Positions 1,051 through 18,286 of a DNA stretch of 38,276 nucleotides are shown piece after piece. The position numbers and the translations under genes are program-made. Each line of letters starts with the position of its first letter. Position 1 is the stretch's first letter. The notes beneath the pieces are model-generated. The model was not told the DNA's origin and did not search any database. It saw only the letters and a list, made by a program, of their open reading frames with translations. Source of the stretch: Methylocystaceae bacterium (lineage in GTDB: Bacteria; Pseudomonadota; Alphaproteobacteria; Rhizobiales; Beijerinckiaceae); the NCBI GenBank assembly GCA_014190435.1, contig BJGJ01000014.1:1-38276 (forward strand). Direction: 5' to 3'.

Positions 1051-1082
1051 TTGAGGACAATGGCTTAATGGATCAATATAAT
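1051..1082 (+). promoter_or_regulatory. Candidate promoter of the small lipoprotein gene
   Basis: A perfect TATAAT lies at 1077-1082, about 20 bases before the ATG at 1103. That would give a leader of roughly 14 bases. A TTGAGG at 1051-1056 is spaced 20 bases away, which is long, and GGACAA at 1055-1060 is spaced 16 bases away, so the -35 box is uncertain. The call rests mainly on the -10 hexamer. Confidence 0.35.
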
Positions 1083-1102
1083 CTCATATCTGGAATAATC
1101 CT

Positions 1103-1489
1103 ATGTCAAAACACATCCATTATGTTCTTGTCGTTGCCGTGAGCCTTGCTGGTTGCGCGAGCATGGGGGCTCAAGACACAGAAGATATGCTTTCCGCGGC
1201 GCAATTTACCATGAAAAAAGCTGATACGCCTGCTAAGCTTTCATTGTTGCGATCGTTAACACAAAACAAAATTATGGCGCATTCTAAAAACGGTAAAAAT
1301 TATTACATCTACGCGGACGCAGCGCAGTGCCAATGTTTATACGCGGGAACAGAAATAAACTACCAACAGTATCAACAAATACGCCTTGCAAAAAATATTG
1401 CTGATGATCAACTAGCTGCCGCTGAGATGAACCAATCTGCAATGATGAACTGGGGTGGATGGGGACCTTGGGGCCCAGGTTTTTACTAA
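1103..1489 (+). CDS. Small lipoprotein with Trp/Gly-rich C-terminus
   Basis: A 128-residue lipoprotein of unknown function. The N-terminus is a short signal peptide ending in the lipobox LAGC with Cys18, so the mature protein should be acylated and tethered to a membrane facing the periplasm. The middle part has a Tyr/Cys motif (YYIYADAAQCQCLYAG, about residues 71-86) followed by a predicted helix rich in Gln and Ala. It ends with an aromatic and glycine tail, MNWGGWGPWGPGFY. I recall similar short lipoproteins with a CxCLYxG motif in alphaproteobacteria, but none has a known role that I can name. The ATG lies shortly after a TATAAT promoter element, with only a weak GGA ribosome binding site. 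The Trp/Gly tail echoes the mature N-terminus of the secreted protein upstream, which may mean a shared location or partnership. Confidence 0.75.
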   Translation: MSKHIHYVLVVAVSLAGCASMGAQDTEDMLSAAQFTMKKADTPAKLSLLRSLTQNKIMAHSKNGKNYYIYADAAQCQCLYAGTEINYQQYQQIRLAKNIADDQLAAAEMNQSAMMNWGGWGPWGPGFY

Positions 1490-1561
1490 GACAACTTTTG
1501 CAGCAATTCTTAGTTACGACCCAGGCCTATCCCAAAGCCTCCCAGTCTGCCTTAAATGTCA

Positions 1562-2800
1562 TTAACTGATTTCAATCCGCAGTTGGGCGACTCTCAGCGG
1601 AACTGGCGGGTGTGAAAAATAAAAAGCAGCAAACAAGGGATCTGGAGTTAAGGAAGCAAGGTTATCACGCGTCAACCGCGTCAACGCTGAAACCATCGCT
1701 TCTTGTCCAACAATCTTGCGAGCAAAATCGTCAGCTTCAAATTCAGCCTTTCTTGAACGCCAAGATAATACTGGCGTTAGAATAAGAGAAATAGGCTCTT
1801 TCGCTAGCAAAAGGGCTATTAGAACGACGCCTGGATCATTTTGAAGATTAAACCAGTTGCTAATTATGCCTGATGAGAAAGCGTAATAAATGGCAAAGAA
1901 CGCAATAAGGGCTAAAACTGCTGATTGGACAATTATTTGAAAAACATGACCATATTTAAAGTGGCCTAATTCATGAGCAAGAATTGACTCTATTTCCTCT
2001 AATGTATGCTTCTCAAGTAAGGTATCAAAGAAAACTATTCTCTTGCCTTTGCCAAAACCCGAGAAATAAGCGTTGCCATGGGCTGAACGTTTAGAGGCGT
2101 CCATAATGAATAAGCCTTTTGACTCGAATCCGCATTTTAATAATAAGCTTTCCATGCGTTCCTTCGTGGCCCCCTCACCCATTGGCGTAAATTTATTGAA
2201 GAGCGGTGCAATAAGCGTTGGGTAAATAACCGTCATGGCCACAGTTAAAGTCATGAAGGTTGCATAAGAAAAAATCCACCAAGTATCAGGTAATGCGCCA
2301 AGTAAAGCAAACATCGCGTAAAGCGCTGGGATCATAATGATGCAAGTGAGCAAAGAAGTTTTTAGCTCATCTAAAATGAAAGTTTTTAGCGTCAACCGAT
2401 TAAAACCAAATTTTTCTTCAATCCAAAAACTATTAAATAATGAGAAAGGCATTTCAAGAAAATGAGAGATGATACCAAAACTCAACACAACCATAACGCT
2501 TCGGGTGATGCTGGACTCACTGTAGTGAGCGACAAACAGATACAAGGGTGATAACCAGGCTGTAAGCCATAAAATACTTATAAGCGTGTCAAAAACTAAT
2601 TCCGCGATACCAAATCTCGTACGCTCGATTGTATAATCAGCCGCGCGTTGATGATCAGATAATGACACTTCACGAACAAAGTCTTGGGGAACAGTATTAC
2701 GATTGCGGGAAACATTTTGGATCTGACGTAACCGCAAATAGACGCCAAAACAACCAGACGTAATAATAGCAAGAATAATTAAACTACCCACGGCCGTCAT
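1562..2800 (-). CDS. M48 family membrane metalloprotease, Ste24/CAAX-protease type
   Basis: An integral membrane zinc protease of 412 residues with the Ste24 layout: an N-terminal block of membrane helices (CAAX-protease N domain, about residues 1-205), then the M48 catalytic domain. The zinc motif HELGH is at residues 276-280, and a downstream EFEADDFA supplies the third ligand. The family motif NAYFSGFG (about 243-250) is intact. Eukaryotic relatives trim prenylated proteins; bacterial members are assumed to handle membrane protein quality control, substrate unknown. The frame is open to position 2992, which would overlap the divergent DUF423 gene. I prefer the ATG ending at 2800 because GGAG lies about nine bases upstream, the length fits the family, and the extension is not needed for the first helix. 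The divergent gap to the DUF423 gene is about 145 bases. Confidence 0.88.
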   Translation of the reverse strand: MTAVGSLIILAIITSGCFGVYLRLRQIQNVSRNRNTVPQDFVREVSLSDHQRAADYTIERTRFGIAELVFDTLISILWLTAWLSPLYLFVAHYSESSITRSVMVVLSFGIISHFLEMPFSLFNSFWIEEKFGFNRLTLKTFILDELKTSLLTCIIMIPALYAMFALLGALPDTWWIFSYATFMTLTVAMTVIYPTLIAPLFNKFTPMGEGATKERMESLLLKCGFESKGLFIMDASKRSAHGNAYFSGFGKGKRIVFFDTLLEKHTLEEIESILAHELGHFKYGHVFQIIVQSAVLALIAFFAIYYAFSSGIISNWFNLQNDPGVVLIALLLAKEPISLILTPVLSWRSRKAEFEADDFARKIVGQEAMVSALTRLTRDNLASLTPDPLFAAFYFSHPPVPLRVAQLRIEIS

Positions 2801-15476: not shown

Positions 15477-15866
15477 GTGACAAGATCCTCCCTCTTTAGA
15501 AAGACCCAGTACACGCGCTTGCCGTCCATCGGCGCTGGCAAGGGCGGGTCGAAGCAATCTGATGGCGATAATGGCGGCACTGCCCTAATTACCCGTCCGC
15601 TCCAACAAACGCGTCGACCCAACATGTATCGCGTGTTGTTGCTTAATGACGATTATACGACCCAAGAATTTGTGATCGTTGTGCTGCGCAAATATTTTAA
15701 TAAATCAGCGGAAGAAGCTCTGCAGATTATGTTGCATGTTCATAATCATGGCGTGGGCGAGTGCGGCATTTATACTTATGAAATCGCTGAAACTAAAGTC
15801 ACTCAGGTAATGGATTTTGCGCGAAAGCATCAACATCCGCTTCAATGTGTAATGGAAAAGAAATAA
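15477..15866 (+). CDS. clpS: ATP-dependent Clp protease adaptor ClpS
   Basis: Delivers N-degron substrates to ClpA. The core domain runs from about residue 50 to 129, with [12 protein letters not shown] (54-66), the His of LHVHNHG (His89) and the YEIAETKV helix that docks on ClpA. Asn57, Asp58, Asp59 and His89, which hold the substrate N-terminus in E. coli, are kept, but the position of the E. coli gatekeeper Met40 is Gln63 and the preceding Pro is Thr. About 45 residues of polar N-terminal tail precede the core, longer than in E. coli. The first start is a GTG at 15477 and no ATG lies upstream of the core, so the tail length is uncertain; a TTG at 15519 is another option. clpA starts 11 bases after the stop. 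Confidence 0.93.
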
Positions 15867-15877
15867 GGGGCTAAATC

Positions 15878-18286
15878 ATGCCAGCTTTCTCGCGGAATCT
15901 GAAACAGTCACTTGACCGCGCACTGGCTTCCGCGCGCGAGCGTCATCATGAATACGCTACTTTAGAACATTTGCTACTTAGTTTAACTGACGACACAGAC
16001 GCAGCAGCAGTTTTGCGCGCCTGCTCTGTCGACTTAGAAGTTTTAAAAAAAAATCTTTTAGATTACATCGATCGCGAACTTGATAATCTCATTAATGAGG
16101 AAGCAGATGAGTGTAAACCAACTGCTGGTTTTCAGCGTGTTGTTCAGAGAGCGATCATTAGCGTTCAGTCATCTGGCCGCGAGGATGTAACTGGCGCAAA
16201 TATTCTGGTTGCTTTATTCGCAGAACGAGAAAGTCATGCAGTCTATTTTCTACAAGAACAAGATATGACGCGCTATGACGCAGTAAATTACATCAGTCAT
16301 GGCATCGCTAAACGTCCTGGCCTATCCGACAGTTCTAAAGCGCCCCGCGGAGTGGATGAGGAGCAAGATCGTAACGACAGTAGAGACGCAAGAGACGGAG
16401 AAAATAGAAAAAAAGAATCCGCTCTAGATGCCTATTGCATAAATCTTAATAAAAAAGCTGAAGCAGGACGTGTAGACCCACTTATCGGACGTGAAGCGGA
16501 GGTATTGAGAACTATTCAGGTTCTTTGTCGTCGACACAAAAATAATCCGCTTTTAATTGGCGATCCTGGCGTGGGTAAAACAGCTATTGCAGAGGGTCTC
16601 GCGCGCAAAATTATTAATCATGAGGTACCAGAAATACTCTCTCAGGCTACTATCTTTGCTCTTGATATGGGTGCATTACTAGCAGGGACGCGTTATAGAG
16701 GCGACTTTGAAGAGAGACTCAAACAAGTTGTTAAAGAAATTGAAAATCATAAGGACGCTGTTTTATTCATTGATGAAATCCACACTGTAATAGGAGCAGG
16801 CGCAACTTCTGGCGGTGCCATGGACGCTTCTAATCTTCTTAAGCCCGCGCTCTCTCAAGGTTCATTGCGGTGCATAGGCTCTACGACCTATAAAGAATAC
16901 AGACAATATTTTGAAAAAGATCGCGCACTCGTGCGCCGTTTTCAAAAGATCGATATCAACGAACCTTCTATATCAGATGCTATCGAGATCATCAAAGGTC
17001 TCAAACCATATTTCGAAGAATTCCATAAAATAAGATATACAGCGGATGCAATAAAATCAGCCGTTGAACTATCTGCGCGGTTTATTCATGATCGTAAATT
17101 GCCTGACAAAGCGATCGACGTCATAGATGAAACTGGCGCGGCGCAGATGTTACTGCCAGAAAACAAACGCAAAAAAACGATTGGCCAAAAAGAAATTGAA
17201 GCAACAATTGCTACTATGGCGCGCATACCGTCCAAAACTGTTTCAAAAGACGATACTGAGATTTTGGCACATCTAGATGAAACGCTGAAACGAGTAGTCT
17301 ACGGGCAGGATAAGGCGCTGCAGGCGTTAACTTCCGCAATAAAGCTCGCGAGGGCCGGACTCAGAGATCCAGAAAAACCAATCGGATGCTATCTTTTTTC
17401 TGGCCCAACAGGCGTTGGTAAAACAGAAGCAGCGAGACAGCTTTCGATATCCTTGGGCATTGAGCTTATTCGTTTTGATATGTCCGAATATATGGAGCGG
17501 CATACTGTAAGTCGCTTACTCGGAGCCCCTCCAGGATATGTGGGATTTGATCAGGGCGGTCTTCTTACTGACGCGATAGATCAACATCCGCATTGTGTGT
17601 TGCTTCTTGATGAGATCGAAAAAGCACATCAAGACCTTTATAATATCTTGTTACAAGTAATGGATCATGGAAAATTAACGGATCATAACGGTAAAACGAT
17701 TGACTTTAGGAATGTCATTTTAATTATGACCACCAATGCTGGAGCCGCTGATTTAGCGCGCGCGCCGATAGGATTCACACGCAATAGAAAAGACAATGAC
17801 GATAATGAAGCTATAAATCGTCTCTTCACGCCTGAATTTAGAAATCGCTTGGATGCCATTGTTCCCTTCAGCCATTTACCTGCTACCGTAATACAGCGCG
17901 TTGTAGATAAGTTTATTATGCAACTTGAAGCTCAATTAGCAGATAGAAATATCACCATTGAATTATCAGATGAAGCGCGTAATTGGCTTGTTGAACATGG
18001 CTATGATGAAGCCATGGGAGCAAGACCCATGTCGCGCATCATTCATCAACACATAAAAACGCCTCTCGCTGATGAGGTATTATTTGGTAGATTAAAGAAT
18101 GGTGGTGCTGTTCGCGTAGTCGTTTTATCAAAAGAGAGCGGTGCAAAGTCTCTAGGATTCATCTATCCTGAAGGACCAGTCCTCCCCAGGCCTGAACGCG
18201 ATATTGTTGAAGCCGGCAAAAAAAGGACAAATAGTTCTAAAACCAAATCTCAGTCGGATAAAGAAGCCGCGACACCTGAAACTTGA
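15878..18286 (+). CDS. clpA: ATP-dependent Clp protease ATP-binding subunit ClpA
   Basis: An AAA+ unfoldase that feeds proteins into ClpP. The 802-residue protein has an N domain (about 1-145) where ClpS docks, a charged linker (about 150-185), and two AAA+ modules. The first has Walker A GDPGVGKT (228-235) and Walker [10 protein letters not shown]; the second has Walker A GPTGVGKT (about 509-516) and Walker [12 protein letters not shown]. The loop APIGFTRN in the second module carries the IGF tripeptide that inserts into ClpP. The last 40 residues are a polar Lys/Ser tail. AGGGG before the ATG and the 11-base gap to clpS support a two-gene operon. No clpP is in the window, so the peptidase must come from elsewhere. 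Confidence 0.97.

Follow-up and report, generated by a model that had tools for sequence, protein, structure and literature searches.

In ClpS, the N-degron adaptor of ClpAP, Asn, Asp and His residues hold the alpha-amino group of the N-degron. In E. coli ClpS, Met40 is a gatekeeper excluding beta-branched residues, and in Leptospira ClpS1 the gatekeeper position is occupied by Tyr (PMC12493166, excerpt). In Arabidopsis ClpS1, selectivity is controlled by pocket residues together with an Arg gate (PMC7966870, excerpt). Since Arg and Tyr occur naturally at this position, a Met gate is not required for ClpS family membership. That the gatekeeper position influences specificity, as the initial annotation of the present locus had assumed, is reported in excerpts of both articles (PMC12493166; PMC7966870). 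For the M53A mutant of Caulobacter ClpS, there is a structure with a peptide that begins with Trp, as the title of entry 3g1b indicates, so Met is dispensable for binding as such. From work in E. coli, loss of the gate Met is said to relax the exclusion of beta-branched residues. Among the literature matches listed, neither binding data nor a test of a Gln-gated ClpS was found, and this absence is not proof that none exists.

The clpS-clpA locus and its start codon

The window, that is, the whole stretch of DNA analyzed here (38,276 nucleotides, contig BJGJ01000014.1 of a Methylocystaceae bacterium), carries a clpS gene directly ahead of clpA. The features discussed below are the following:

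15477..15866, + strand: clpS, N-degron adaptor of ClpAP (open reading frame; PF02617 and NF000669 above cut-off; AlphaFold2 core)
15477..15623, + strand: N-terminal extension, 49 residues with the GTG start (translation; upstream frames of relatives compared)
15624..15863, + strand: ClpS core domain, 80 residues (alignment, AlphaFold2 model, structure comparison)
15660..15665, + strand: Thr62-Gln63 codons ACC CAA at the gatekeeper position, equivalent to E. coli Pro39-Met40 and Caulobacter Pro52-Met53
15878..18286, + strand: clpA, ATPase partner of ClpS (TIGR02639; Clp_N and AAA domains)

Counted from the GTG at 15477, the protein has 129 amino acids. It scores 117.9 bits against Pfam PF02617 (cut-off 23) and 153.7 bits against NCBIfam NF000669 (curated cut-off 149), and its partner in the same genome reaches 1122.6 bits against TIGR02639 (cut-off 993.15). 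The substrate-binding strand, [10 protein letters not shown], is encoded by AAT GAC GAT TAT ACG ACC CAA GAA TTT GTG. The reading frame proved real; the numbering first given for Asn57, Asp58, Asp59, Thr62, Gln63 and His89 is correct, as is the 11-base gap between the clpS stop and the clpA start, recounted in the window.

Two codons, GTG 15477 and TTG 15519, are candidates for the start, and the choice is unsettled, so that the tail before Asn57 comprises 56 or 42 residues. The nearest relatives, L119, L166/L029 and L027, share both codons, and a GTG 54-56 codons before the Asn is also present in seven more relatives (20 sequences inspected). No clear ribosome-binding site was seen for GTG 15477, and a promoter and terminator scan upstream of clpS gave nothing exceeding shuffles. 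The stretch encoding the extension (15477-15623) has a G+C content of 58.5%, versus 40.0% for the core and 43.7% for clpA.

The tail, put at about 45 residues, had been described as long. The extension is indeed longer than that of E. coli ClpS, with 33 residues before the Asn. Compared with the 46 residues ahead of Asn47 in Caulobacter, it is 10 residues longer with the GTG start and 4 shorter with the TTG start; both reference lengths derive from the numbers given to Asn47 and Met40 in an excerpt of PMC12493166. The tail is thus near the Caulobacter length, and the N-terminal extension of ClpS is poorly conserved across orthologues (PMC9663308, excerpt). It is unremarkable.

Fold and substrate pocket

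The AlphaFold2 model of the core has a pLDDT of 96.2 and superimposes on Caulobacter ClpS (3dnj) with a Z score of 18.6 at 0.5 Å, with 70% identity over 80 residues. In the comparison with solved structures, a re-examination of Foldseek's best 1000 chains, the 24 top rows are all ClpS entries (Z 13.6 to 18.7). The fold is the same as in the Caulobacter entries 3dnj, 3g19 and 3gq1 and in those of the M53A mutant (3g1b and 3g3p). The core is 54% identical to most E. coli entries (3o2b, 2w9r and others; 0.4-0.6 Å).

Nine of the 11 Caulobacter pocket residues, as listed in an excerpt of PMC12493166, are identical in the window protein; Asn47, Asp48, Thr51, Val56, Met75, Val78, His79 and Leu112 (Caulobacter numbers) are all kept. 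Caulobacter Met53, Pro52 and Ile45 are replaced by Gln, Thr and Leu, respectively. With E. coli ClpS, the protein shares Asn-Asp-Asp and the His, but Thr-Gln stands in place of Pro39-Met40. The gate Met, usual in Pseudomonadota, is therefore absent, and Gln63 takes its place as residue 14 of the core, where the model's first helix begins. Another alphaproteobacterial ClpS, Agrobacterium ClpS2 (4yjm), likewise lacks the gate Met; it reads TPREFV, with an Arg gate. A ClpS2 paralogue was considered for the window gene and rejected: the match to 4yjm has an E value of 6.2e-14 versus 1e-38 for 3dnj, the gate is Gln and not Arg, and the gene adjoins clpA. A pseudogene was also rejected, given the intact reading frame and the conserved pocket.

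Distribution of the Gln gate

It had been proposed to align ClpS from close relatives and see whether Gln is fixed in the lineage. Each of the 37 genus members examined (Methylocystis group, own genome included) has Thr-Gln at the gate, so that fixation is borne out. The gate codon is CAG in 28 of them and CAA in nine, and the 29-base motif exists in 23 distinct DNA versions. A sequencing or assembly error can be rejected on the grounds that all 37 members share Thr-Gln with varying codons. Among the matches listed, the nearest named relative is L119, a Methylocystaceae, with a core 99% identical to that of the window; a ClpA tree places it beside Methylocystis and Methylosinus. One Gln-type copy elsewhere (L175:4202-4435) has an in-frame stop within the aligned core, due either to decay or to a sequencing error.

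In 24 other families of the order, each represented by one genome, the gate of the main ClpS is Pro-Met in 23 cases and Pro-Gln in the remaining one. Of the 24 genomes, two (G051 and G059) carry a second ClpS gene with an Arg gate, like Agrobacterium ClpS2, which is the best match of one of the copies. A slightly narrower pattern, applied to 397 genomes of the order, finds the Gln motif in 10 of them, from four families. Since the sister branch (L093) has Pro-Gln, Met was probably exchanged for Gln in this lineage before Pro was exchanged for Thr.

At the scale of phyla, all counts come from motif patterns that demand NDD, as do those for the order and for the collection of named genomes, so that ClpS with other residues there are uncounted. 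In Pseudomonadota, the motif with any gate residue is found in 355 of 398 genomes and a Gln gate in four, two of them from the own genus; the Gln count is a rerun on a sample matched in size and make-up to the any-residue sample. With Gln this rare in the phylum, the change there is more than background variation. In 99 genomes of Acidobacteriota, the motif is present in 24, with Met in 15, Gln in seven and Arg in two. In 101 genomes of Campylobacterota, it is present in 36, with Met in 20, Gln in 11 and Phe in five (G905, G907, G929, G940 and G941). The names of both phyla were deduced from the organisms at the center of the samples, Geothrix terrae and Helicobacter apodemus, which were picked as Gln carriers; leaving these out gives the fairer Gln counts of 6/23 and 10/35. 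The initial annotation had made its case depend on Gln not being common among ClpS proteins of normal specificity. Gln is common outside Pseudomonadota (7/24 and 11/36) and rare inside (4/398). The Gln gate is thus unusual in Pseudomonadota, but not in bacteria overall.

The collection of named genomes contains at least 117 Gln loci, the Methylocystis group included, and every one holds a Gln-gated ClpS. The 80 titles listed include Acidobacteria, Myxococcota, Bdellovibrionales, Spirochaetales, Helicobacter, Fusobacteriaceae, Parvularculaceae, Devosia and others. In a ClpA tree of 60 fragments, 39 of them with Gln, the Gln state needs seven gains or losses (6-8 over bootstraps), and at least five changes are forced by well-supported branches. 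It should be noted that the 62 rows from which this tree was drawn were chosen partly for Gln, with 23 loci taken from the at least 117. Two rows were dropped (L027, with no clpA in the locus DNA, and L028, too short), and a repeat of the window (L068) and another locus of the own genus (L067) were left out. The outgroups L117, L130 and L153 have very long branches. Some redundancy is also present: L014 and L069 are from one genome, and L070/L121 and L071/L100 look like pairs in which one genome is present in two collections.

The pocket positions that lie outside the search pattern were read in 117 of the at least 117 Gln loci. Met75 and His79 are kept in all 117, Leu112 in 114 and Val78 in 105; the Leu46-equivalent is Leu in 60, His in 56 and Arg in one. 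The Gln is preceded by Thr in 81, by Pro in 34 and by Ser in two. A structure alignment covered the window and 18 loci selected from these 117. The Gln-gated ClpS of Acidobacteriota, Campylobacterota, Myxococcota and Parvularculaceae share the gate Gln, usually with Thr before it, with the window protein; they belong mostly to distant lineages and often have His at the Leu46-equivalent, where the window ClpS has Leu. In the same 117 loci, clpA lies at most 400 bases downstream on the same strand in 105. Among the other 12, the DNA ends within 400 bases in four, another clpS intervenes in one (L101), and seven have enough DNA and no clpA match. The L101 locus (1053-1664, minus strand), from a Blastocatellia MAG, has two ClpS genes in tandem immediately ahead of clpA, with Thr-Gln at the gate of the first and Pro-Met at that of the second. 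A whole-genome search of 20 Gln-bearing genomes, chosen from among the 117 loci, found a single ClpS in 19. By these measures, Gln-gated ClpS have the appearance of functional main adaptors.

Adaptor role and possible effects on specificity

The own genome (2,161,103 bases, 66% complete) contains one detected ClpS, and each of the 36 same-genus relatives has one match; 27 of these relatives are at least 97% complete, while nine of them and the own genome fall below that value. The proposed search for a second ClpS thus found none in the own genome, at 66% completeness, nor in the 36 relatives, and the idea that the genus has another, Met-gated ClpS was rejected on the basis of one match each in the 37 genomes. 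A second gene could be missing from the own genome because of its 66% completeness. As the sole ClpS found, adjoining clpA, the protein is very probably the main adaptor, as had been presumed. The window has a G+C content of 45.5%; the Methylocystis group has a G+C content of about 60% or more. One same-genus genome (G008) spans about 2.1 Mb at 98% completeness, and many others have 3-5 Mb. The low G+C and the small genome of G008 perhaps point to a streamlined lineage.

The own genome encodes Aat, an enzyme that adds Leu or Phe, as do 61/61 relatives of the window. A protein of the ATE_C family, which we take to be the leucyl-transferase Bpt in these bacteria, is also present in the own genome, and in 58/61 relatives and 36/37 genomes of the genus. 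The presence of Aat and of an ATE/Bpt-type transferase beside a single detected ClpS suggests that recognition of Leu and Phe is presumably retained by this protein. Where a cell produces N-terminal Leu and Phe signals and a single reader serves them, that reader very probably binds both.

Taken together, it is likely that the window ClpS is the ordinary main adaptor of a Methylocystis-group bacterium, with a natural and recurrent Gln gate. It would bind N-degrons that begin with Leu, Phe, Tyr or Trp, part of which Aat and the ATE/Bpt-type transferase would generate, would dock on the N-domain of ClpA and would pass the substrate to ClpAP. Being unbranched and about as long as Met, Gln is expected to keep the gate; it would most likely fill it as Met does and still disfavor Ile and Val, with changes in affinity that may be modest at most. 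Against this ordinary reading, Gln is polar and Met apolar, and exchanges of the gate residue reportedly have an effect.

As a special case of this explanation, Gln may have spread by drift and stayed, being almost neutral and of no functional consequence. The exchange is chemically conservative, it recurs across many phyla, and clpA adjoins both kinds of gene, in 105/117 Gln loci (at least 117 exist) and in 21/21 Met-gated relatives of the tree. However, the residue is strictly fixed in the protein while its codons vary silently, and Gln is rare in Pseudomonadota (4/398); both suggest some constraint. Such drift is, moreover, hard to distinguish from the general explanation, and we lean slightly against it.

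The initial annotation had suggested an altered N-degron specificity. This proposal, in which the Gln gate shifts specificity usefully and was selected repeatedly, giving weaker binding of Leu, stronger binding of aromatic residues or acceptance of Ile, Val or Met, is in agreement with the five or more state changes in the ClpA tree, with the fixation of Gln throughout one genus and with the control of selectivity by the Arg gate of Arabidopsis ClpS1 (PMC7966870, excerpt). Nevertheless, the Leu/Phe-adding Aat and the ATE/Bpt-type transferase are kept with a single detected ClpS, the other pocket positions listed are those of Met-gated relatives of the order (e.g., G046), and the side chains of Gln and Met are alike in size and shape. 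With Gln fixed in the genus and recurrent in bacteria, the idea that it marks a special adaptor is mostly unsupported; an altered specificity is possible but likewise unsupported, and a useful shift appears unlikely.

It is also quite improbable that the exchange of Met for Gln is a recurrent selected switch, either altering the N-termini that are degraded or replacing an oxidizable Met and so making the gate insensitive to stress. Gln often serves as a mimic of oxidized Met; if the oxidation reading were true, the ClpS gate would no longer be responsive to oxidative stress. Finally, a degenerate clpS, or a true adaptor encoded by a second ClpS elsewhere, for which the 66% completeness of the own genome leaves room, is largely refuted and most improbable in view of the intact frame, conserved pocket, high-confidence fold and adjacent clpA, and of the single ClpS in 36/36 same-genus relatives, 27 of them at least 97% complete.

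The Gln gate, here most likely that of an ordinary main adaptor, bears on whether the E. coli N-degron rule holds in Gln-gated bacteria. Met is not the universal gatekeeper of ClpS: in the two other phyla sampled, Gln is naturally common at this position, and Phe and Arg also occur as gate residues.
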